Assembly: GCA_024451685.1 (NCBI GenBank)
Contig: JAMXCW010000018.1
Location: 1-36,720, forward strand
Length of the DNA: 36,720 bases
Direction: 5' to 3'
Origin: Candidatus Bathyanammoxibius amoris
GTDB taxonomy: Bacteria > Planctomycetota > Brocadiia > Brocadiales > Bathyanammoxibiaceae
Made by a program: the position numbers and the translations under genes. How positions within the stretch are numbered: the stretch's first letter is position 1; every line of letters starts with the position of its first letter. Of this stretch, positions 2,309 to 31,826 are shown in pieces. The notes beneath the pieces are model-generated. The model saw only the letters and a program-made list of their open reading frames with translations. It did not search any database and was not told the DNA's origin.

Positions 2309-3601
2309 CTATTTATCCTTTGCGGCGGCAAGCATTCCTGTCTTCGCGTCCCGATGGCCGGCGGGAGCGGCGTCTTTTTCCATGAAGGCGTCGAAATCCT
2401 CAAGACTCGCCTTTATAAGCAGGTGGGGTTTCGCCAGTTTACCTATTACGGCCTCCTGTGTCTTGAGCCCGTTACCCGTTATGCTTATCACGATCGATTC
2501 GTTCCTGGGTATGCGGCCCTGTTCTATCAGTTTTTTTGCCACTGCCACCGTTACACCACCGGCCGTCTCGGTAAAGATACCCTCCGTTGAGGCCAGTAAC
2601 TTTATACCCTCTACCAGTTCGTCGTCGGTCACGTCCTCGGCCCAGCCGCCACTCTCGTTTATGGCCTTGATGGCGTGATAGCCGTCCGCGGGGTTGCCTA
2701 TCGCGATGGACTGGGCGATGGTGTCGGGTTTTACGGGTTTTATGGTGTCCCAGCCGTTCTTTACCGCGGTTGATATGGGTGCGGAGCCGGAGGCCTGGGC
2801 CCCGTAGAGCTTTGTCCCGGCATCAGGTATAAAACCGAGCATCTTAAATTCCTTAATGGCCTTAAATATCTTCAGTATGAGTGACCCGCCTGCCATGGGT
2901 ACTACTATGTGTCGCGGGGCCTTCCAGCCGAGCTGTTCGACTATCTCGTGTCCGTACGTCTTGGAACCCTCGGCATAGTACGGGCGGATGTTTATGTTGG
3001 CGAACGCCCAGCCGTATTTCCCGGCTATCTCGGAGCACAGCCGGTTAACGCCGTCATAGTTGCCGTCGATACCGATAACCTTGGGCCCGTAGACGAGCGT
3101 GCCCACTACCTTCCCCTGCTCCAGGTCTGCGGGCATGAATATATAGCTCTCAAATCCCGCCTGTACCGCCTGCGCGGCCACCGAGTTTCCCAGATTACCT
3201 GTGGTCGCGCAGGCCACCGTCTTGAAGCCGAACTCCTTCGCCTTCGAGAGCGCGGCGGATACGACCCTGTCTTTGAAACTCCATGTCGGGTAGTTTACCG
3301 AATCGTTTTTTACGTACAGTTCCTCGACACCCAGGGCCTTCGCCAGATTATGCGCCCTGAGGAGCGGGGTGAATCCGACGTCGATTCCAACCGTGGGCTC
3401 TCCGTCCAGGGGCATAAGCTCCTTATACCGCCACATATTCTCGCTTCTGGAGGTGATTACGTCTCTGGTGAGACACTTCTTTATGCCGTCATAATCGTAT
3501 TCTACTTCCAGGGGCCCGAAACAGAAACTGCAGACGTGGATGGGCTCCTTGGGGTATGTGCGGTCGCATTCTCTACACTTCAGGCTTTTGACAAACCCCA
3601 T
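2309..3601 (-). CDS. thrC: Threonine synthase, zinc-ribbon type, PLP-dependent
   Basis: Threonine synthase converts O-phosphohomoserine to threonine. The 430-residue product starts with a four-cysteine ribbon (C9, C12, C24, C27) and then a fold-type II PLP domain. The PLP lysine is K110 in PTWSFKDR (a Trp replaces the more usual Gly), and the PLP phosphate loop is likely TTGNLGNS, with AGGSLILKIFKAIKEF further on. The start ATG has AGGAG about ten bases upstream. The gene is preceded by a SAM-I riboswitch and a terminator and followed by a MoaD/ThiS-like gene. SAM control is unusual for plain threonine synthesis. The enzyme may protect the homoserine branch for methionine, or may be a related beta/gamma-replacement enzyme using carrier-bound sulfur. 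The family assignment is firm; the substrate is less so. Confidence 0.88.
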   Translation of the reverse strand: MGFVKSLKCRECDRTYPKEPIHVCSFCFGPLEVEYDYDGIKKCLTRDVITSRSENMWRYKELMPLDGEPTVGIDVGFTPLLRAHNLAKALGVEELYVKNDSVNYPTWSFKDRVVSAALSKAKEFGFKTVACATTGNLGNSVAAQAVQAGFESYIFMPADLEQGKVVGTLVYGPKVIGIDGNYDGVNRLCSEIAGKYGWAFANINIRPYYAEGSKTYGHEIVEQLGWKAPRHIVVPMAGGSLILKIFKAIKEFKMLGFIPDAGTKLYGAQASGSAPISTAVKNGWDTIKPVKPDTIAQSIAIGNPADGYHAIKAINESGGWAEDVTDDELVEGIKLLASTEGIFTETAGGVTVAVAKKLIEQGRIPRNESIVISITGNGLKTQEAVIGKLAKPHLLIKASLEDFDAFMEKDAAPAGHRDAKTGMLAAAKDK

Positions 3602-8985: not shown

Positions 8986-11589
8986 CTATTTACCGCAACA
9001 TTGTTTATATTTCTTCCCGCTGCCGCAGGGACATGGCTGGTTCCTTCCCACCTTGGTGCCCACGCGGATGGGTTCTGTTGTCCGCTTCTCCTGTTCCGCG
9101 GTCGCGGTCGCAGCCTGCGGTTGCGGCTTTCTCTCCATGAGTGCCGCGTCTTGATAGACAAAGTTGTCGACATTCCACACCCTGTGTGCCATATGCGTGG
9201 GTTCTTTCTCAAGCTTTATCTTGAAGAGCAGGTCTGTCAACTCTTCCCTTATGGAGGCCATCATGCTCTGGAACATGCCCAGGGCCTCACGTTTGTATTC
9301 TATTTTGGGGTCTATCTGAGCGTAACCCCTGAGACCGATACCGCTCTTCAGGCTATCCATCGCGTAAAGATGGTCTTTCCACTTCGAGTCGACCTTTTCC
9401 AGGATGATGAACTGTTCGAGCTTTCTGATGTTGTCTTCCCCTATATCAAGCTCCCGCTGGTGATAAAGCTCAGTGGCTTTTCCCATGAGATGTTCTTCTA
9501 TGTCTTCCACCGACTTTCCGGCAAGTTCTTCGGGGGCGGGCTTTACGCCGAACTTCTGCTCAAACCATTTGGTCAGCTCCTCGGTGTCCCACTCGTCTTC
9601 ATTCTGTCCCGGCATATAGCGGTCCATCGAATCCAGCACATTGTCTTCGATCATTTTCAGGACGCTATCCCTCAGGTCCTTCCCCTCGAGGCAGTTCTGC
9701 CGCCACGTGTAGATGGTCTTACGCTGTTCGTCCATGACCTCGTCGTATTCCAGGAGGTGTTTTCGGATCTCGAAGTTGTGTTCCTCAACCTTCTTTTGGG
9801 CGCGCGCTATGGCGTTGGTGACCATGCCGTGTTCGATGGCCATCCCTTCCTCCAGGCCGAATTTCTGCAGGATTGAGCTTACCCTTTCTGAGGCGAAGAT
9901 GCGCATGAGGTCGTCATCAAGCGCGACGTAAAACCTCGAAGAGCCGGGGTCGCCCTGCCTGCCCGAACGTCCGCGCAGCTGGTTGTCAATACGTCTGGCC
10001 TCGTGCCTCTCCGTGCCCAGGACGTGGAGCCCGCCCCGCTCGGCCACTCCTTCGCCCAGGACGATGTCTGTGCCCCTGCCGGCCATGTTTGTGGATACGG
10101 TAACGTGACCCTCCTGGCCGGCCTTTGCTACGATGTGGGCCTCTCGCTCATGGTGTTTTGCGTTTAGAATCTCGTGCTCGATACCGCAGCGGTTCAGCTT
10201 TTCACTCAACATTTCAGATTTCTCTATGGAAGCGGTACCTACAAGGATGGGCCTGCCGGCCTTGTGTATCTCTGTTATCTCGTCCACAATGGCCGTCCAT
10301 TTTTCCTTCTGAGTTCGGTAGACCCGGTCAGGGGCATTATCACGCTTGAGGGGCTTGTTGGTGGGAACGGATACTACCTGCAGTCCGTATATTTTATCAA
10401 ATTCCATCGCCTCCGTGGTGGCGGTACCCGTCATACCCGCGAGTTTCTCGTACAGTCTGAAGTTGTTCTGGAGGGTGATGGTGGCGAGGGTCTGGTTTTC
10501 TTCTTTTATCTTCTGGTGTTCCTTGGCCTCTACTGCCTGATGCAGGCCGTCGCTCCATACCCTTCCTTCCATGAGCCGTCCGGTGAATTCGTCGACAATG
10601 ACCACCTGACCGTTTTTTATGATGTAGTCCGTGTCTCTTTTAAACAGGTGGTGGGCGCGCAGGGACTGCTCGATATGGTGTGGCCATTCCATGTTCTTCT
10701 CTGTGTATATACTCCCCACACCAAGCTGGTTCTCTACCGCCTCTATTCCCGCGTCGATGAGGTGGACCGTTTTTTCCTTCTCTTTTATATCAAAATGTTT
10801 ACCTTTCTTCAGCCGGCGTGCGATACGGTCGGCAATGTAGTACTGCTCGGTAGACTCCTCCGTGGGACCGGAGATTATGAGGGGGGTTCGGGCTTCGTCT
10901 ATGAGGATGCTGTCCACCTCGTCGATTATGGCGTAGTTGAGTTGTTTTTGCACCTGCTCTGCCGTGCTTGTGCGCATATTGTCTCTTAAATAATCAAAGC
11001 CGAACTCGTTATTTGTGCCATACGTGATATCACACTGGTAGGCGACCTTCTTTTCCGCATAGTCCTGGTCGTTCTGAATCGTGCCCGCTGACATGCCCAG
11101 GAACTCGAACACCGGGCCCATCCAGTCGCGGTCCCTCTTGGCCAGGTAATCGTTTACCGTTACTATGTGCACGCCCTTACCGGTGAGGGCGTTAAGGTAT
11201 GCGGGTAATATGGCGACCAGCGTCTTACCCTCGCCAGTGGCCATCTCTGAGATCTTGCCCTGATGGAGTACTATCCCGCCCAGGAGCTGTACGTCGAAGG
11301 GGCGCATGGTAAACGGCTCAATGTCGGGGTTCGGGGAGCGCGACACGCGGGCCGAGGCCTCTCTGGCCACGGCGAAGGCCTCCGGCAATAGGTCGTCCAG
11401 GGTCTCTCCATTGGCCAGCCTGTCCCTGAATTCACTGGTCTTTGCCCTGAGCTGGTCGTCTGAGAGGGCCTTTATCTTCGGCTCGAAAGAGTTTATCTGT
11501 TCCACTATGGGCCAGAGCTCCGCCAGGGCACGCTCGTTGGCCGAGCCGAAGACCTTATCTAGCCCCTTTGTTATGTAATCAAGTATCAT
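8986..11589 (-). CDS. secA: Preprotein translocase ATPase SecA
   Basis: SecA drives post-translational export through SecYEG. The 867-residue protein has the Walker A loop GEGKT (119-123), IIDEVDSILIDEARTPLIIS (the DEVD box), TNMAGRGTDIVLG and RGRSGRQGDPGSSRFY in the second helicase lobe, and the C-terminal zinc motif CPCGSGKKYKQCC (from residue 853) that binds SecB or ribosomes in other bacteria. The ATG at 11589 has GAGG about eight bases upstream and a good promoter (11607-11635). It is the first gene of the secA-waaA-metK-ahcY-DUF1015 operon, an uncommon grouping of export, lipopolysaccharide and methyl-cycle genes. Confidence 0.97.
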   Translation of the reverse strand: MILDYITKGLDKVFGSANERALAELWPIVEQINSFEPKIKALSDDQLRAKTSEFRDRLANGETLDDLLPEAFAVAREASARVSRSPNPDIEPFTMRPFDVQLLGGIVLHQGKISEMATGEGKTLVAILPAYLNALTGKGVHIVTVNDYLAKRDRDWMGPVFEFLGMSAGTIQNDQDYAEKKVAYQCDITYGTNNEFGFDYLRDNMRTSTAEQVQKQLNYAIIDEVDSILIDEARTPLIISGPTEESTEQYYIADRIARRLKKGKHFDIKEKEKTVHLIDAGIEAVENQLGVGSIYTEKNMEWPHHIEQSLRAHHLFKRDTDYIIKNGQVVIVDEFTGRLMEGRVWSDGLHQAVEAKEHQKIKEENQTLATITLQNNFRLYEKLAGMTGTATTEAMEFDKIYGLQVVSVPTNKPLKRDNAPDRVYRTQKEKWTAIVDEITEIHKAGRPILVGTASIEKSEMLSEKLNRCGIEHEILNAKHHEREAHIVAKAGQEGHVTVSTNMAGRGTDIVLGEGVAERGGLHVLGTERHEARRIDNQLRGRSGRQGDPGSSRFYVALDDDLMRIFASERVSSILQKFGLEEGMAIEHGMVTNAIARAQKKVEEHNFEIRKHLLEYDEVMDEQRKTIYTWRQNCLEGKDLRDSVLKMIEDNVLDSMDRYMPGQNEDEWDTEELTKWFEQKFGVKPAPEELAGKSVEDIEEHLMGKATELYHQRELDIGEDNIRKLEQFIILEKVDSKWKDHLYAMDSLKSGIGLRGYAQIDPKIEYKREALGMFQSMMASIREELTDLLFKIKLEKEPTHMAHRVWNVDNFVYQDAALMERKPQPQAATATAEQEKRTTEPIRVGTKVGRNQPCPCGSGKKYKQCCGK

Positions 11590-23262: not shown

Positions 23263-24459
23263 TCAGTCAAAAAGTGCGTTTATAAAACTGTCCGGGTCGA
23301 ACTTCTGTATGTCATCGGCCCCTTCTCCCAGGCCCAGGAACATTACGGGTATCTTTATCTCGTCCTGCATTGCGATAACTATGCCGCCCTTGGCGGTGCC
23401 GTCGAGTTTCGCGAGAAAGAGGCCCGTGATGTCGATGGTTTTTCCAAAAAGTTTCGCCTGTGAGATGGCGTTCTGGCCCGTCGTTGCGTCTAAGACCAGC
23501 AATACTTCGTGCGGCGCGCCTTCTATTCTCTTTGAGATGACCCTCTTTATCTTGCTGAGTTCCTGCATGAGGTTCTGTTTTGTATGAAGCCTTCCGGCGG
23601 TATCTACTATTACTACGTCGATGTCCCTTGCGATGGCCGCCTCAACGCTGTCGTAGGCCACGGCTGCTGGGTCCGCCCCCTCACCGTGTTTTACTATCTG
23701 CGCGCCGATTCGGTCGGACCATATCTCCAGTTGCTCTGTGGCGGCTGCCCTGAAGGTGTCTCCAGCGGCAAGCAGCACCTTCTTGCCGTCCTTAATAAAC
23801 ATGTTGGCCAGCTTGGCGATTGACGTCGTCTTGCCGCTGCCGTTTACTCCGGCGACCATGATGACCGTGGGCGGTTCGGCGGCCGCATGCAGGTCGCGCC
23901 GTGCGTCCCTGAAGCGTTCTTTAAGCCTTTTTTTGAGGAACTCCTTCATCCCGGCGGTATCCGTAAACTCTCTTAGCTCCCAGGCGTTTCGTATGTCTGC
24001 GACAAGCTTTGTCACGAACCTGACGCCCATGTCCGCTTCTATGAGGGCCGCCTCCAACTCTTCCAGCACCTCGTCATTTATCTCTTGCTGTGAAGAAAGC
24101 AGGCCGTGCAGATTGCTTTCGAGACGGGTGCGGGTCTTTTTGAGACCGTTCTTGAGTCCTTCAACGTCAACCCACGTGTCCAGGGAAAGCCAGTATGCGG
24201 CGGCTGATTTGGGTGATGGTTTGGCCTTTTTGCCCCCTTCTTTCTCCTCCGGGGCGTCTGGCGCCGTCTGCTCCGGGGTCTCGGTGGCAGCCTTTTTCTC
24301 TTCAGACACTGCTTCCGTTTCCTTCGCAGTTGTTGCGGCAGTCTCTTTTTCTTTGATGTTTTTGTCGCCGTCGTCGTCCGGGTCGGAGCCGGGTCGTCTC
24401 CCGGCCTTTTTTTTATCCTCTCCGAGGCCCGTAACTTCTTTTAAATAATCAAATACCAT
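23263..24459 (-). CDS. ftsY: Signal recognition particle receptor FtsY
   Basis: FtsY docks SRP-ribosome complexes at the inner membrane. The 398-residue protein has a long acidic, low-complexity A domain (residues ~12-85), an N domain with LESNLHGLLSSQQEINDEVL, and the G domain: GVNGSGKTT (204-212), DTAGRLHTKQNLMQELSK and KLDGTAKGG. AAGG lies about eight bases before the ATG. It is the last gene of ribH-(nusB-PHP)-ftsY, 25 bases after the fusion gene. Together with secA and tatC it makes this window rich in export functions, although the three are in separate operons. Confidence 0.96.
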   Translation of the reverse strand: MVFDYLKEVTGLGEDKKKAGRRPGSDPDDDGDKNIKEKETAATTAKETEAVSEEKKAATETPEQTAPDAPEEKEGGKKAKPSPKSAAAYWLSLDTWVDVEGLKNGLKKTRTRLESNLHGLLSSQQEINDEVLEELEAALIEADMGVRFVTKLVADIRNAWELREFTDTAGMKEFLKKRLKERFRDARRDLHAAAEPPTVIMVAGVNGSGKTTSIAKLANMFIKDGKKVLLAAGDTFRAAATEQLEIWSDRIGAQIVKHGEGADPAAVAYDSVEAAIARDIDVVIVDTAGRLHTKQNLMQELSKIKRVISKRIEGAPHEVLLVLDATTGQNAISQAKLFGKTIDITGLFLAKLDGTAKGGIVIAMQDEIKIPVMFLGLGEGADDIQKFDPDSFINALFD

Positions 24460-24484: not shown

Positions 24485-25783
24485 TCACGTAGCGGTCAAA
24501 ACGTCTCTCGGCTGCTTGCACCGTTCTCTGAGGGCCAGTACCGTTTCATTGGAGACCGTTATTTTTCCTAAAGGTACGCTGGGCTTCCTCAGTCCATGGA
24601 AGTCAGAACCGCCAACAGGTATCAGATTGTACTTCTTTGTGATGCCAAGATATTTTTCTACTATCTCCGGCGTGTGCGACGGGTAATATACCTCAATTGC
24701 CTGCAGGCCGCTATCCACGAGAAGCGGTATGATGTCATCTTTCCCTGAAAGACCCGGATGGGCATAAACAGATACCCCTCCCGCCTCATCGATGAGTTCT
24801 ATCGCCTGCCGTGGCGTAAGGATCTTTTTTGGTACATACGCGGGACCGTCATCTCCAATATACCTGGCAAAACACTCCGCAAGATTTTTGCAATACCCGT
24901 GTTTCACGAGCAGCTCCGCCATGTGCATCCTTCCGGGTGGACTGTTGCCGGCCAGATTGAAGACTTCTTCCTTATCGATGTTTACGCCAACGCGGCTTAA
25001 TTTCTCTACGATGGCCGATATCCTTGTGACCCTTTCCTCAATTATTTGAACGAATTTCTCTGTCAGGTTGCTGTTGTCTATGTCGATAAACAGGCCGAGT
25101 ATGTGTATCTCATATGGCTGGACATACCCTGACACCTCGACGCCGGGTATTATGTGGACGTTCCTCTTGAGGCCCTCTCTCTGGGCGGGCCGCACAGCGT
25201 CTATGGTGTCGTGGTCGGTTATAGCCATTGTCTTAAGACCTACGCGTACCGCTTCCTCAACCACTTCCTCGGGGGAAAACGTGCCGTCAGAACATATGGT
25301 ATGGACGTGCAGGTCCGCCTCACCGTAGTCCGCGACGAGAGACACTTTTGGCCCCATTTTGCCATACTTTTGGCTCTTGGCATAGTGGTTCGCGTAGACC
25401 TTGTCCAGTATGCCGTTTACAAACGTGCCGGAGTTCTCGGTGCTGTATTTTTTGGCGAGGTCTATTGCCTCGTTGACGGATACCTTGGGGGGGATGTCGT
25501 CTCTGAAGAGGAGTTCATAGACTGCCAGGCGCAGGATGCAGCGGTCAACGACGGCCATGCGGGGGAGTTCCCAGTTCTCCACGACAGAGGAGACCTCTTT
25601 ATCTATGTCACTTATACGGTCCCGGCAGCCTTTCACCAGTTCAGCGGCAAACCCGGCAACCTCATCGTCCTCGGCCCTGGAGATGCAAGAAGAAACGGCT
25701 TCGTCTAAAACGTCCTGCCCGCGTATGTCTATCTGGTAAAGGGCCTGTAACGCCAGCTCCCTGGCCCGCGTTCTCTTTCTCAT
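24485..25783 (-). CDS. Fusion of transcription antitermination factor NusB with a PHP phosphoesterase
   Basis: A single uninterrupted 432-residue frame. Residues 1-~135 are a complete NusB (MRKRTRARELALQALYQIDI at the start; NEAIDLAKKYSTENSGTFVN at 104-123). After a ~20-residue linker comes a full PHP domain of the YciV/RNase AM type: DLHVHTICSDGTFSPEEVVE (157-176), ITDHDTID (188-195), IIPGVEVSGY (211-220), H227, then VYAHPG and GGSDFHG, so all expected metal ligands look present. NusB joins the rRNA antitermination complex; E. coli YciV is a 5'-3' exonuclease that trims 5' ends of rRNAs. A fused protein could couple the two (inference). It is encoded between ribH and ftsY; ribH-nusB adjacency is common. 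Confidence 0.9.
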   Translation of the reverse strand: MRKRTRARELALQALYQIDIRGQDVLDEAVSSCISRAEDDEVAGFAAELVKGCRDRISDIDKEVSSVVENWELPRMAVVDRCILRLAVYELLFRDDIPPKVSVNEAIDLAKKYSTENSGTFVNGILDKVYANHYAKSQKYGKMGPKVSLVADYGEADLHVHTICSDGTFSPEEVVEEAVRVGLKTMAITDHDTIDAVRPAQREGLKRNVHIIPGVEVSGYVQPYEIHILGLFIDIDNSNLTEKFVQIIEERVTRISAIVEKLSRVGVNIDKEEVFNLAGNSPPGRMHMAELLVKHGYCKNLAECFARYIGDDGPAYVPKKILTPRQAIELIDEAGGVSVYAHPGLSGKDDIIPLLVDSGLQAIEVYYPSHTPEIVEKYLGITKKYNLIPVGGSDFHGLRKPSVPLGKITVSNETVLALRERCKQPRDVLTAT

Positions 25784-25794
25784 GCCGGCATAAC

Positions 25795-26277
25795 CTACTT
25801 CTTCCTTTTTGAGCCCAGGCGTTCAACCAGGTTTGCCATCTCTATGGCGTCCTTCGCTGCCTCCGCGCCCCGGTTGCCGCTGCGGGTGCCCGCGCGGTCA
25901 ATGGCATGTTCCAGGGTCTCTGCGGTGACCACACCGAGGATGGTGGGAACGCCGGTATCAAACCCCACCTGGGCTACACCCTTTGATACCTCGGCGGAAA
26001 CATATTCAAAGTGCGGCGTCTGACCGCGAAGTACGGCGCCAAGACAGACAACGGCGTTATACCGCTTACTCCGGGCAAGCCTTAAGGCCGTTGACGGTAT
26101 CTCAAAGGCGCCCGGGACCCAGCAGACGTCAATGTCCTTTTCCCTTACGCCATGCCTGAGAAGGCAGTCATGCGCGCCCTCCAGCAGTTTTCGGGTTATA
26201 AATTCATTAAACCGGCTTACAACCAGACAAAAGCTCTTTCCGGTGCCGATAAGGCCCCCTTCGAATGTCTCGCCCAT
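25795..26277 (-). CDS. ribH: 6,7-dimethyl-8-ribityllumazine synthase
   Basis: RibH condenses the ribityl-pyrimidine with dihydroxybutanone phosphate (made by RibBA) to give the riboflavin precursor. The 160-residue protein has SRFNEFIT (21-28), WVPGAFEIP (53-61), [15 protein letters not shown] (80-94; catalytic H89) and the [18 protein letters not shown] region. AAGGAG lies about eight bases before the ATG. The nusB-PHP gene follows 11 bases later. It is divergent from the tatC fusion. Confidence 0.96.
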
Positions 26278-26457: not shown

Positions 26458-27801
26458 ATGCCTGCAGAAAAAACCGGGACAGCGGCAAAAGAGCCGAGAT
26501 TTACACTTGGCGAACACCTCGAGGAGCTTCGCACGCGTGTCATATTGTGCGTAATCTGCCTGCTGGTCTGCTTCATCGTGTGCTGGATATTCAAGGCAGA
26601 CCTCCTCAAGCTGGCCGGGAGACCCCACAGCCTTACTATGGAGGGGCTGGGGCTTCCCACAAATCTCAACGTCATCAGCTATCAGGAGGGTTTCTTCGCC
26701 TATCTAAAACTCTGCCTGCTCAGCGCATTTTTTCTGGCCTACCCTTTTATGATTTATCAGGCCTGGCTGTTCGTGGGCGTGGGGTTATACACGCACGAGC
26801 GCAGATACGTTAAAATATTCCTCCCCATATCCTTCGTGGCATTTGTCACCGGGGCGCTGTTCGGCTACCTCTTCCTGATACCCATCTGCCTGTACTTTCT
26901 GATAACGATACTGGGCTCGGCGGTAGAGCCTATTATCACGATGTCTCAGTATATTTCCCTGATATTTCTTCTCACCGTGGTGCTGGGGATAGTATTTCAG
27001 ATACCGCTGGTCATGCTGCTCCTGGTGAAGATCGGGGTCTGCCGCGCGGAAGACTACATCACGCATCGAAGGTCTATCCTGCTGGGCGTCTTTGTTCTGG
27101 CGGCCATCGTTACCCCGCCCGACCCGTTCAGCCAGGTGTCCACGGCAGTACCGATGGTGGGGTTGTATGAGCTGGGTATCCTGCTTGTGAAACCCTCGCG
27201 GACGTCCATTATGTATGCCGTGGGGGTGGTGGCCGTAGTGTTACTGCTGGTGTTCGGCGTGTACTCGTACTTTACTAGGCTGGAGTTGGGCAGGGTCGGT
27301 CACAGCGACGGCACGGTTACCCTGTCCGGTCCGAGAGACGAATCCACCCGCGGCCTCCGCAGGGGCGCCGAGGTCCATACGGGCGGCAGCTCACGCACCA
27401 CCCTCTCGCTCACGGACGATACACGCGTCCACGTGAACCAGCAGTCTTGGCTGACCATATCAGGCAAGAGGACCTTGAATCTCCATGAGGGGGAAATCCT
27501 CCTGAACGTGCGGGAGGGCGGCGGCGCCTTTGTAGTGAGCACCCCGAGCGGACGTGTAAACGTGGAAGAGGATGTAAAAGGAGGCGGAGCGGGCAGAGGC
27601 ATAGCAGCGGATATTAAGGCCCGCAACGATACTCTGGTCGTTACTATGATAAGGGGCATCGCCACCGTCTTTGCGGAGGGGGAGCGGCACACCGTACGCG
27701 CAGGACGTCAGCTCACCCTCTCCCCCGGCGGCCAACCCGTCGACGTAGGTGAGATAACGGATTGGGCAAGGAAGCTAGAGACATCGAAAGAACAACGATA
27801 G
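26458..27801 (+). CDS. tatC: Tat translocase subunit TatC fused to a FecR-like periplasmic domain
   Basis: Residues 1-~245 are TatC: HLEELRTR (20-27), the signal-peptide-binding stretch SYQEGFFAYLK (74-84) and six hydrophobic segments. A typical TatC stops there (~250 residues). This frame continues through a seventh helix (IMYAVGVVAVVLLLVFGVYS, 251-270) into ~177 further residues resembling a FecR domain: GTVTLSGP, RGAEVHTGGSSRTTLSLTDD, TRVHVNQQSWLTI, LHEGEILLNV, FVVSTPSGRVNVEED, IRGIATVFAEGERHTVRAGR. With the N-terminus inside, seven helices put this domain in the periplasm, where FecR domains work. No frameshift or stop separates the parts. A sensing or cargo-linked role for the tail is inference. 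Clearly longer than the family norm. Confidence 0.88.
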   Translation: MPAEKTGTAAKEPRFTLGEHLEELRTRVILCVICLLVCFIVCWIFKADLLKLAGRPHSLTMEGLGLPTNLNVISYQEGFFAYLKLCLLSAFFLAYPFMIYQAWLFVGVGLYTHERRYVKIFLPISFVAFVTGALFGYLFLIPICLYFLITILGSAVEPIITMSQYISLIFLLTVVLGIVFQIPLVMLLLVKIGVCRAEDYITHRRSILLGVFVLAAIVTPPDPFSQVSTAVPMVGLYELGILLVKPSRTSIMYAVGVVAVVLLLVFGVYSYFTRLELGRVGHSDGTVTLSGPRDESTRGLRRGAEVHTGGSSRTTLSLTDDTRVHVNQQSWLTISGKRTLNLHEGEILLNVREGGGAFVVSTPSGRVNVEEDVKGGGAGRGIAADIKARNDTLVVTMIRGIATVFAEGERHTVRAGRQLTLSPGGQPVDVGEITDWARKLETSKEQR

Positions 27802-27846: not shown

Positions 27847-28533
27847 ATGAAGATTGAAATCATTATAGCGATAAGTGCTTTAGTTATTTCTGTTGCAGGG
27901 TGGATAGTTGCTCACTTTCTAACTATTAAAGCTCGCAAGAAGAGTTTTTTAAATGAAGTTACTGATAACGCACGACTTGAAATTACAAAGGCCATTAGGG
28001 ATTATCAAAACTGGCTTAATAAAATTAGCACTGAAATTAGTGGATTACGTTTTAGGATTACAGAGGAGGAAGATAACCGTCCAGTTGATTGGACAAGCGT
28101 AAGTAGTGAGTTTGGACAGCTACTCTATGAGGGAAACCATTCCTTACGATGGATATTTTGTTTAGAAGAATACGAGGTTTTATTTCCTAAAACAGCTGGT
28201 TTGCGGAGAGAATTAGTCGGTAAGGACCGTAAGATAGGAGAAGATTTAAGCTCTCTTTCAGCCGAACTAATTCATATTTCTTTACTGTCAACTCCGTTAG
28301 AAAAAAGAAAAGAGGTTGTGAAGAAGGCACAGAAGGAAAGCACCGCTATATGTGACCAGGTAACACTGATGGAGGACTTTCTAATTTATCTACAAAATTT
28401 CTGCTTGAGTTCCATTACAGGGAATAAGATACCAGAGAGAGAACCAAAAGATCCGTCAGTTCCACGAATTGTTCAAGATGAGAATGGAAATCTACGCATA
28501 GTTCCCGGTGAAACTTCAACTGGCAAGAAATGA
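27847..28533 (+). CDS. Membrane-anchored protein of unknown function, AT-rich
   Basis: I do not recognise this 228-residue protein. One N-terminal helix (IIIAISALVISVAGWIVAHF, residues ~4-23) is followed by a basic stretch (KARKKSF) and a mostly helical, charged cytoplasmic part with coiled-coil potential (EKRKEVVKKAQKESTAIC). The end is hydrophilic (REPKDPSVPRIVQDENGNLR). Codon use is much more AT-rich than any neighbour, as if recently acquired. A TATAAT at 27835-27840 places the transcription start at or next to the ATG and no Shine-Dalgarno site is present, so the mRNA is probably leaderless. It lies alone between tatC and the convergent rplT. Confidence 0.75.
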   Translation: MKIEIIIAISALVISVAGWIVAHFLTIKARKKSFLNEVTDNARLEITKAIRDYQNWLNKISTEISGLRFRITEEEDNRPVDWTSVSSEFGQLLYEGNHSLRWIFCLEEYEVLFPKTAGLRRELVGKDRKIGEDLSSLSAELIHISLLSTPLEKRKEVVKKAQKESTAICDQVTLMEDFLIYLQNFCLSSITGNKIPEREPKDPSVPRIVQDENGNLRIVPGETSTGKK

Positions 28534-29799: not shown

Positions 29800-31725
29800 T
29801 TACGCCTTTTCTTTAATCTCTTTGTGCAGGCGTTCCAGGAGTTCTTCAATGGCACACTGTCCTTCGTCGCCGTTCTTGCGGCTCCTGACGGATACCAGTT
29901 TGCCGTCCATTTCCTTGCCGCCGACTATCAGGAGATAGGGGACCTTTTCGAGGATTCCCTGTCTTATCTTATAGCCGACCCGCTGGTTTGTGTTGTCACA
30001 TTCCGCCCTCAGGCCTTCCTGGTCGAGTTTTTTCTTTATAGCGCGGGCATAATCATTGACGGCGTCTGAGACGGGCAGCACCTTTACCTGCACGGGCGCG
30101 AGCCACAACGGGAAGGCCCCGCCGTAGTGCTCTATCAGGTTGCCCAGGAAGCGTTCCATGGCGCCCAGCACCGTGCGGTGTACCATTACCACCCTGTGTT
30201 CCTTGCCGTCGGGACCTACGTAATGGACGTCAAAGCGTTCCGGGAGGTTGAAATCCACCTGGATGGTCGGTCCCTGCCAGCCCCTGCCGAGGGCGTCTTT
30301 CACCTTGATGTCTATGGAAGGGCCGTAAAACTTGGCCTCTCCCTCACCCAGGTAGTAGGGCAGGTCTTTTATCTCAAGGGCCCTCTTTAGGGCCTGCTCG
30401 GCCATGCCCCAGGTCTCGTCAGAACCGATATATTTCCCCTTTTCTCCCTTACCCCTGACGGCCAGCTCTATCTCGTATTCCTTAAAACCAAAGGAGGTGA
30501 GCATGTGGTCGGCCAGCTCTATCACCCCGACGATCTCCTCCTCCAACTGCTCTGGCGTGCAGAATATGTGGGCGTCGTCCTGAGTGAACCCCCTGACACG
30601 GAGGAGTCCGTGGAGCACCCCGGAGCGTTCGTATCTGTAGACCGTGCCCATCTCCGCGAACCTCAACGGGAGGTCGCGGTAGCTCCTCATTTCGGACTTG
30701 AAGATGAGGATGTGGAAGGGGCAGTTCATGGGTTTTACCAGATACTCGGCGGCATCCATCTCAAAGGGACTGAACATGCTCTCGCTGTAGAAGTCCCAGT
30801 GGCCGCTGGTGTGCCATAGTCCGGACTTTGCGATGTGCGGGCTGTAGACAATCTCATAGCCCCTCTTGTAATGCTCCTCGCGCCAGAAGTCTTCTATTAC
30901 GTTGCGGATGCGTGCGCCCTTCGGGTGCCAGAGCACAAGACCGGGGCCGACGTCTTCCTGGATGCTGTAGAGGTCCAGGTCCTTTCCCAGGCGTCTGTGG
31001 TCGCGCTTCTTTACCTCCTCGAGCAATTTTAGATATTTATCAAGTTCCTTCTGCCGGAAGAACGCCGTGCCGTATATACGCTGGAGCATAGGGTTTGTTT
31101 CTTTGCCCCTCCAGTACGCCCCCGCCACACTGAGGAGCTTAAACGCGGAGACGCGGCCTGAACTGGGTATGTGCGGACCGCGACAGAGGTCCATGAACTC
31201 CCCCTGCGCGTAGAAGCTTACCTCTTCTCCCGGGTCAATGTTATTGATTAGCTCTAACTTGTAGGGCTGACGTTCCACGTCCATCTTTTTTATGGCCTCG
31301 TCCCTGGGCAGGGCCTCTCTGTGAAAGGTTAGGTTCTCGTTGATGATCTTTTTCATCTCCGCTTCTACGTTCTCCAGGTCTTTTTGGGTCAGCGGCCGCT
31401 CAAGGTGAAAGTCATAGTAAAAGCCGTTCTCTATGGTGGGGCCGATGCCCAGCTTTGCCCCGGAGAAGAGCCTGCATACGGCCTGTGCCATTATGTGAGC
31501 GGTACTGTGGCGGAGTATGTCCAAGGCCTCCGGTGAGTCCTCGGTGACTATGGAGAGCGATGTGTCGTGAGTGAGCGGGGCGTTTAGGTCGACCAGCGTG
31601 CCGTTGGTCTTCCCCGCGATAGCCCTCTTCTTGAAGGGGTCGCCCAGATCTTCAGCGACCTCACCAACAGTGGTTCTCTCTTGATAAGTCTTTTCTATAC
31701 CGTCCGGTAAAACTACCTTTATCAT
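29800..31725 (-). CDS. thrS: Threonyl-tRNA synthetase
   Basis: ThrS charges tRNA-Thr and edits mis-acylated serine. The start was set at ATG 31725 (GGGAG five bases upstream; MIKVVLPDGIEKTYQ is a normal TGS-domain start); an in-frame extension upstream runs into the tRNA gene and is rejected. The 641 residues hold the TGS domain (1-~62), editing domain with HSTAHIMAQAVCRLF, the class II catalytic core with KPMNCPFHILIFKSEMRSYR (zinc Cys), GTVYRYERSGVLHGLLRVRG and FTQDDAHIFC, and the anticodon-binding domain at the end. infC follows after 41 bases. No T-box precedes the gene. Confidence 0.97.
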   Translation of the reverse strand: MIKVVLPDGIEKTYQERTTVGEVAEDLGDPFKKRAIAGKTNGTLVDLNAPLTHDTSLSIVTEDSPEALDILRHSTAHIMAQAVCRLFSGAKLGIGPTIENGFYYDFHLERPLTQKDLENVEAEMKKIINENLTFHREALPRDEAIKKMDVERQPYKLELINNIDPGEEVSFYAQGEFMDLCRGPHIPSSGRVSAFKLLSVAGAYWRGKETNPMLQRIYGTAFFRQKELDKYLKLLEEVKKRDHRRLGKDLDLYSIQEDVGPGLVLWHPKGARIRNVIEDFWREEHYKRGYEIVYSPHIAKSGLWHTSGHWDFYSESMFSPFEMDAAEYLVKPMNCPFHILIFKSEMRSYRDLPLRFAEMGTVYRYERSGVLHGLLRVRGFTQDDAHIFCTPEQLEEEIVGVIELADHMLTSFGFKEYEIELAVRGKGEKGKYIGSDETWGMAEQALKRALEIKDLPYYLGEGEAKFYGPSIDIKVKDALGRGWQGPTIQVDFNLPERFDVHYVGPDGKEHRVVMVHRTVLGAMERFLGNLIEHYGGAFPLWLAPVQVKVLPVSDAVNDYARAIKKKLDQEGLRAECDNTNQRVGYKIRQGILEKVPYLLIVGGKEMDGKLVSVRSRKNGDEGQCAIEELLERLHKEIKEKA

Positions 31726-31749
31726 ACACTCCCGCAAGAATTTTCCGCG

Positions 31750-31826
31750 TGGTGGGCGATAGTGGACTCGAACCACCGACCTCTTGCTTGTCGAGCAAGC
31801 GCTCTAGCCAACTGAGCTAATCGCCC
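31750..31826 (-). tRNA. tRNA-Val (anticodon GAC), CCA encoded
   Basis: The minus strand folds as a complete cloverleaf: acceptor GGGCGAT (31820-31826) with ATCGCCC (31754-31760), D arm GCTC-AGTTGGCTA-GAGC, anticodon stem CTTGC/GCAAG with loop TCGACAA, variable AGGTC, T arm GGTGG-TTCGAGT-CCACT, discriminator A and an encoded CCA. The anticodon by position is GAC, reading GUC (valine). Position 33 is C, not the near-universal U. It lies 24 bases upstream of the thrS ATG and probably shares its transcript. Confidence 0.93.

Follow-up and report, generated by a model that had tools for sequence, protein, structure and literature searches.

A FecR-type domain on the C-terminus of TatC in anammox bacteria and their relatives is probably older than anammox

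The closest described counterpart of the protein considered here is TatC of Candidatus Kuenenia stuttgartiensis (kustc0286), which has a C-terminal PF04773 domain placed outside the cytoplasm by three topology predictors (Medema et al. 2010, PMC2881027). This domain was present in no other TatC known in 2010, and a role in anammoxosome sorting was suggested as possible (PMC2881027). In PupR, an anti-sigma domain is followed by a transmembrane helix (residues 86-104), a beta subdomain termed CJM (from residue 110) and an STN domain (PMC7186176, 6OVK), and binding of the transducer requires both CJM and STN (PMC7186176). Extra trans-side domains on TatC are known from Myxococcus xanthus and Nitratifractor salsuginis (9E03, 9E02; PMC13323110). 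The core complex is (TatBC)3, packed tightly on its periplasmic side; the M. xanthus insert forms an ordered homotrimer on this complex, and transport probably takes place at its periphery (PMC13323110).

The window, meaning the whole 36,720-nucleotide stretch of DNA analysed, encodes a protein that shares with kustc0286 its architecture, its single-copy status and its non-cytoplasmic C-terminal PF04773 domain, but comes from another family. It is thus a rediscovery of the 2010 finding. A preliminary description of the window had stated that no role for such a fusion was described, which does not hold, as both the fusion and speculation on its role were published in that year (PMC2881027); no later study of it was found in the open-access literature searched. 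The 2010 paper knew one organism and tied the fusion to the anammoxosome, whereas here it is found beyond Brocadiales. What is added to that account is the reach outside the order, a tree with a single gain, a tail with CJM only, and its standing as the one FecR domain of the genome, with no sigma-factor match on its contig. The reach outside the order and the missing signalling parts weaken the strong form of the sorting hypothesis. The features are as follows.

26458-27801, forward strand: tatC-fecR fusion gene, 447 aa (open frame; Pfam TatC and FecR; NCBIfam TIGR00945), the sole TatC of the genome
26512-27153, forward strand: TatC core, residues 19-232, six helices (Pfam; alignment to E. 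coli TatC, 9dzz)
27199-27276, forward strand: seventh transmembrane helix, residues 248-273 (hydropathy; AlphaFold2 helix)
27289-27720, forward strand: FecR-type (CJM) all-beta domain, predicted on the trans side, residues 278-421 (Pfam FecR; model; Foldseek to 4m0n and 6ovk)
27748-27795, forward strand: C-terminal helix, residues 431-446, bearing the invariant W436 (conservation; AlphaFold2 models)
25795-26277, reverse strand: ribH, the divergent neighbour (Pfam), adjacent to tatC at many loci of the order Brocadiales (families f1, f3 and f5)
24485-25783, reverse strand: nusB fused to a PHP (metallo-phosphoesterase) domain (Pfam), conserved with ribH and tatC in Brocadiales

The reading frame is unbroken from the ATG at 26458 to the stop codon ending at 27801, and both Pfam matches lie above the curated cut-offs: TatC (PF00902) at residues 19-232 (E 9.3e-59, 199.2 bits, model positions 1-208 of 208) and FecR (PF04773) at residues 305-371 (35.3 bits against a cut-off of 24, E 1.6e-8; E 2.8e-9 when the tail was scanned by itself). 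The NCBIfam tatC model (TIGR00945) is matched over positions 2-215 of 215 with 182.9 bits against a cut-off of 132.7. TatC, a seventh helix and a FecR-like region in one frame, as first described, are thereby confirmed. There is one TatC copy in the source genome (2.07 Mb, 95% complete). Residues E23, E114, T219 and Q226 align with E15, E103, T208 and Q215 of E. coli TatC (reference 9dzz), and are invariant or nearly so across Brocadiales TatCs. Since these signal-peptide and TatA/B-contact residues are retained, the window TatC should be a working translocase component.

The core is followed by a short basic cytoplasmic stretch (KPSR) and helix 7, whose hydropathy peak is centred on residue 259 (KD19 2.67). 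AlphaFold2 lays out the tail as a helix (248-273), an all-beta region (278-421) and a final helix (431-446); the seventh helix is therefore real, with limits nearer 248-273 than the 251-270 first proposed, and the FecR region given as about 280-440 stands for the Pfam match and the beta fold, while residues 431-446 form an additional helix. In the full-length model the TatC part is moderately confident, and a pTM of 0.43 leaves the placement of the domain relative to the core loose. Folded in isolation, the tail reached a pLDDT of 86 and a pTM of 0.79, and Foldseek against the PDB returned BDI_1681 (4m0n, E 4e-7; also 4m0h) and PupR (6ovk, E 2.8e-5) as the sole convincing neighbours, so that structure prediction bears out a FecR-type fold. 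The tail profile recovers the same two proteins by sequence.

Few tail residues are invariant (G285, G303, G345, T396, G400, G416, Q418, G424, G425 and W436); a GRQ...GG motif conserved in Brocadiales (G416, R417, Q418, G424, G425) lies just ahead of the C-terminal helix. With so few invariant positions and no catalytic-looking pattern of conservation, the tail sequence is more suggestive of structure or protein contact than of enzyme activity.

Both termini of TatC are cytoplasmic. Because the TatC core ends in the cytoplasm, helix 7 should put the FecR domain on the trans side, that is, in the periplasm/paryphoplasm or in the anammoxosome lumen. The periplasmic tail of the preliminary description follows from this topology, in agreement with the three predictors applied to the Kuenenia homologue (PMC2881027). 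The beta domain begins about four residues past helix 7, and so short a link should hold it on, or right next to, TatC's periplasmic face. As in FecR and PupR, a transmembrane helix is followed after some four to five residues by an all-beta CJM. Unlike in those proteins, TatC takes the place of the anti-sigma domain, for which there is no Pfam match; STN is missing, just 26 residues remaining past the beta domain; and no linked FecI-type sigma factor or TonB-dependent transducer was found on the window contig or among its scanned ORFs, respectively. Like the TatCs of M. xanthus and N. salsuginis, the window protein has an extra trans-side domain. Theirs, however, are mutually unrelated inserts in periplasmic loops, whereas this one has a FecR fold and is C-terminal, after helix 7.

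The source genome (G000) has one TatA-type PF02416 gene (contig C2, 120945-121088), and a minimal TatAC system is predicted for the window's family. At most one detectable TatA-type gene per genome is present in that family, and two are present in many Brocadiaceae and Scalinduaceae genomes. Three protein-targeting genes, secA (8986-11589), ftsY (23263-24459) and tatC (26458-27801), lie inside one 19-kb stretch of the window. A scan of the whole window for Tat-signal DNA patterns gave no match. Right after tatC is an A+T-rich ORF (27847-28533, 228 aa, about 38% GC) with an N-terminal hydrophobic stretch; it was rejected as a conserved operon partner, since neither Pfam nor NCBIfam recognises it and the compared flanks contain no relative. 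Elsewhere in the window, a SAM riboswitch (RF00162, 3708-3828, reverse strand, 78.9 bits) is located upstream of a gene for a PLP-dependent enzyme (2309-3601), and the thrS frame as called (29800-31776) runs at its 5' end into tRNA-Val (31750-31826, reverse strand), so that the true thrS start is probably further in.

The source genome encodes its own HzsA, which shares 64% identity with HzsA from a member of the Kuenenia hertensis genus; an HzsBC-like fragment (70%) adjoins it. On account of this hydrazine synthase, the host is an anammox bacterium. Its family appears to be Ca. Bathyanammoxibiaceae, to which RIFCSPLOWO2_12_FULL_50_35 belongs (PMC9723696), and family f2 (JACQHT01) appears to be Ca. 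Subterrananammoxibiaceae.

The distribution of the fusion within the order was surveyed in 62 Brocadiales genomes, including contigs of Candidatus Brocadia, Jettenia, Kuenenia, Scalindua and Anammoxibacter. TatC was detected in 58 and went undetected in four. TatC, helix 7 and FecR form one continuous frame in 53 of these 58, with one end of the gene running off the contig in three of the 53. Of the remaining five, one is split over two contigs, two have their frame broken close to the linker, and two reach the end of a contig ahead of the tail. No natural TatC terminus short of the tail was seen in any of the 58. All five anammox families carry the fusion, members of genus g11 (that of K. hertensis) among them, and the shared architecture expected of related genomes extends throughout Brocadiales: every anammox TatC readable to its end bears a FecR tail. 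The two frame breaks, a shift in a T-rich run relative to close relatives (probably a small indel) in genome G035 and a local duplication of about 30 bases in G053, look like sequence error. Two readings raised at the outset were rejected on this survey. An assembly join near position 27230 was discarded because the junction is identical in dozens of independent genomes, and separate tatC and fecR genes in relatives were discarded as there are just these two artefact-like breaks.

Tailed TatCs were also found in three families of the same class outside Brocadiales. The survey was centred on Planctomycetota and the strongest matches in the phylum, with one narrow pattern scan outside it. Families f7, f8 and f9 have open-frame TatCs of 443-597 aa with a profile match through the FecR part; the Pfam FecR model is passed by f7 (37.6 bits) and matched below threshold by one f9 protein, and gives no match in others. 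The f8 and f9 tails align with those of Brocadiales over 196 columns, helix 7 included (hhalign probability 99.8, E 8e-29), and the tail glycines and the final tryptophan position are retained outside the order. The genes next to tatC in f7-f9 are unrelated. TatCs of the ordinary kind, 282-311 aa long, are found in f6, another family of the class.

Whether these families are anammox bacteria was judged by hydrazine synthase. PF18582 (HZS alpha) has no match in 22 of the 62 Brocadiales genomes. As many of these are incomplete or fragmented, little can be read from its absence in a single draft; the weight of f9 comes from the agreement of nine genomes, with a match in none of the nine (completeness 67-96%). 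In f7 and f8, PF18582 was rejected as a marker of anammox, since many long proteins there match it, and the HzsA/HzsBC-like genes of these families are at best 29-33% identical; for both reasons f7 and f8 were dropped as non-anammox evidence, and f9 was used. Two loci of the same class outside Brocadiales, L107 (G064 C183:43500-51500) and L109 (G065 C35:172500-178500), have HzsA-like and HzsBC-like genes, the best pair of which is 29-33% identical to hydrazine synthase of Kuenenia; they are possible outgroup homologues of that enzyme. HZS-alpha domain matches number 11 in G064 and 16 in G065, mostly in long proteins.

When a tree was built from the TatC core, excluding the tail, the tailed proteins all fell into a single clade (bootstrap 87, SH-aLRT 95) with f6 outside it, and the tail trait costs one change of state; basal support is moderate and some branches are long. 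A tail-only tree places f8 and f9 apart from f7 plus Brocadiales, a split consistent with vertical descent. The simplest reading of these trees is that one fusion event preceded the separation of Brocadiales from its sister families and was followed by vertical descent. The FecR tail on TatC is thus probably older than anammox. A possible source is suggested by an f9 genome, which encodes a free-standing protein with a cysteine-containing N-terminal region, a transmembrane helix and a weak FecR match. It aligns to TatC helix 7 and the tail together, and its N-terminal region is anti-sigma-like by eye, without a Pfam match. We infer from this alignment that helix 7 and the FecR domain may have arrived as one cassette from a free-standing protein of this kind.

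To say that TatC hardly ever continues past its sixth helix, as the preliminary description did, overstates the case for Planctomycetota, which has several unrelated C-terminal extensions and loop inserts. Six TatCs (L084-L089; families f15, f43 and f74; 445-491 aa) also have a C-terminal helix and a further domain. Unlike the window tail, theirs is an independent extension, since they form a separate TatC clade (100/98); the two of these tails that were scanned, L084 and L089, gave no significant Pfam match. Inserts of about 60-200 residues occur in the first periplasmic loop of L094, L095 and L096 (families f87, f44 and f69), and L093 (f14) is extended at its C-terminus by a region that weakly matches HEAT repeats.

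Selection on the tail was estimated from 14 close pairs, two of which (L087/L088 and L084/L085) are from the differently tailed families. Tail dN/dS was 0.09-0.39 in 13 pairs, the fourteenth (L012/L018) having too few silent changes to judge, and core dN/dS was 0.02-0.18, lower than that of the tail in all pairs. These substitution patterns show a tail under purifying selection, though changing 1.3 to 10 times faster than the core.

We tentatively propose that the tail caps the TatC trimer on the trans side or acts there as a docking module, the role to which we give most credence while holding it short of probable. A cassette of transmembrane helix and FecR juxtamembrane (CJM) domain would have joined the cytoplasmic C-terminus of TatC once, before Brocadiales split; three tail copies would cap or brace the (TatBC)3 core and may offer a docking surface for trans-side partners, whether other tail copies, accessory proteins or envelope proteins; and the cap would stabilise or localise the translocase instead of signalling to transcription. 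A FecR cap at the periplasmic face is compatible with the known (TatBC)3 structure. The preliminary description suggested that the tail might report cargo passage, recruit partners or anchor an exported complex; recruitment, or stabilisation of the core, would fit best. Trimer capping is proposed by functional analogy with the trans-side insert of M. xanthus TatC, which trimerises on the core complex (PMC13323110). Against the proposal, that insert belongs to a periplasmic loop instead of the C-terminus, and it is missing from the listed fold matches of the tail. The fast evolution and few invariant residues of the tail would also fit a loose anchor.

The same fast evolution would suit a surface that tracks its partners, as expected if the tail were a trans-side cargo receptor or checkpoint that binds emerging Tat substrates or a chaperone and aids release or quality control. 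The placement of the tail beside the exit face agrees with such a function, as does the fact that FecR and PupR domains bind protein partners (PMC7186176). However, the CJM of PupR fails by itself to bind its partner and needs STN (PMC7186176), which this tail lacks, and we regard a receptor as unlikely.

A little less likely again is that the tail sends the Tat translocase to the anammoxosome membrane or retains it there, as suggested by Medema et al. (2010). The fusion is indeed in all five anammox families, and the 2010 classifier assigned the entire Tat system to the organelle (PMC2881027). That hypothesis implied a restriction of the fusion to anammox bacteria, but f7, f8 and f9 carry it, f9 with no HZS alpha match, and the core tree dates the gain before Brocadiales, which would leave at most a later use of an older domain. 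As the fusion probably predates the anammox order, the anammoxosome is probably not what the FecR domain arose for, but the domain may have been co-opted later.

Sensing of the FecI/FecR kind, with the tail as a signal transducer to an ECF sigma factor, is very improbable: domain name and fold speak for it, but TatC replaces the cytoplasmic anti-sigma domain and STN is missing. The tail is the sole FecR domain in a whole-genome search, none of the four sigma-70 region-2 matches of the genome is on the window contig (C18), where a FecI-type sigma factor had been thought worth seeking, and the scanned window ORFs include no sigma factor or TonB-dependent transducer. With a single FecR domain, no sigma factor on the contig and neither anti-sigma domain nor STN, such signalling is unlikely to be a function of this tail. 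Chimeric assembly or a functionless relic, for which the frame breaks near the linker in two genomes could be adduced, is hardly credible: dozens of genomes share exactly this architecture, the tail is under purifying selection, and those breaks are probably a small indel and a local duplication of 30-odd bases.

The tailed, differently tailed and untailed TatCs of planctomycetes are a natural set for comparing the effects of trans-side domains on (TatBC)3, for which core structures are now available. TatC-FecR is among the few physical oddities that have been proposed as part of the answer to how anammox bacteria target proteins to the anammoxosome as opposed to the cell surface (PMC2881027). 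A more speculative scenario, which we consider quite doubtful, is that the FecR cap is an ancient trans-side regulatory or docking module belonging to one class of Planctomycetota, which predates anammox and was later used to place the sole Tat translocase in the anammoxosome membrane. If true, a gene fusion would have helped a bacterium to direct the export of folded proteins to an internal organelle.
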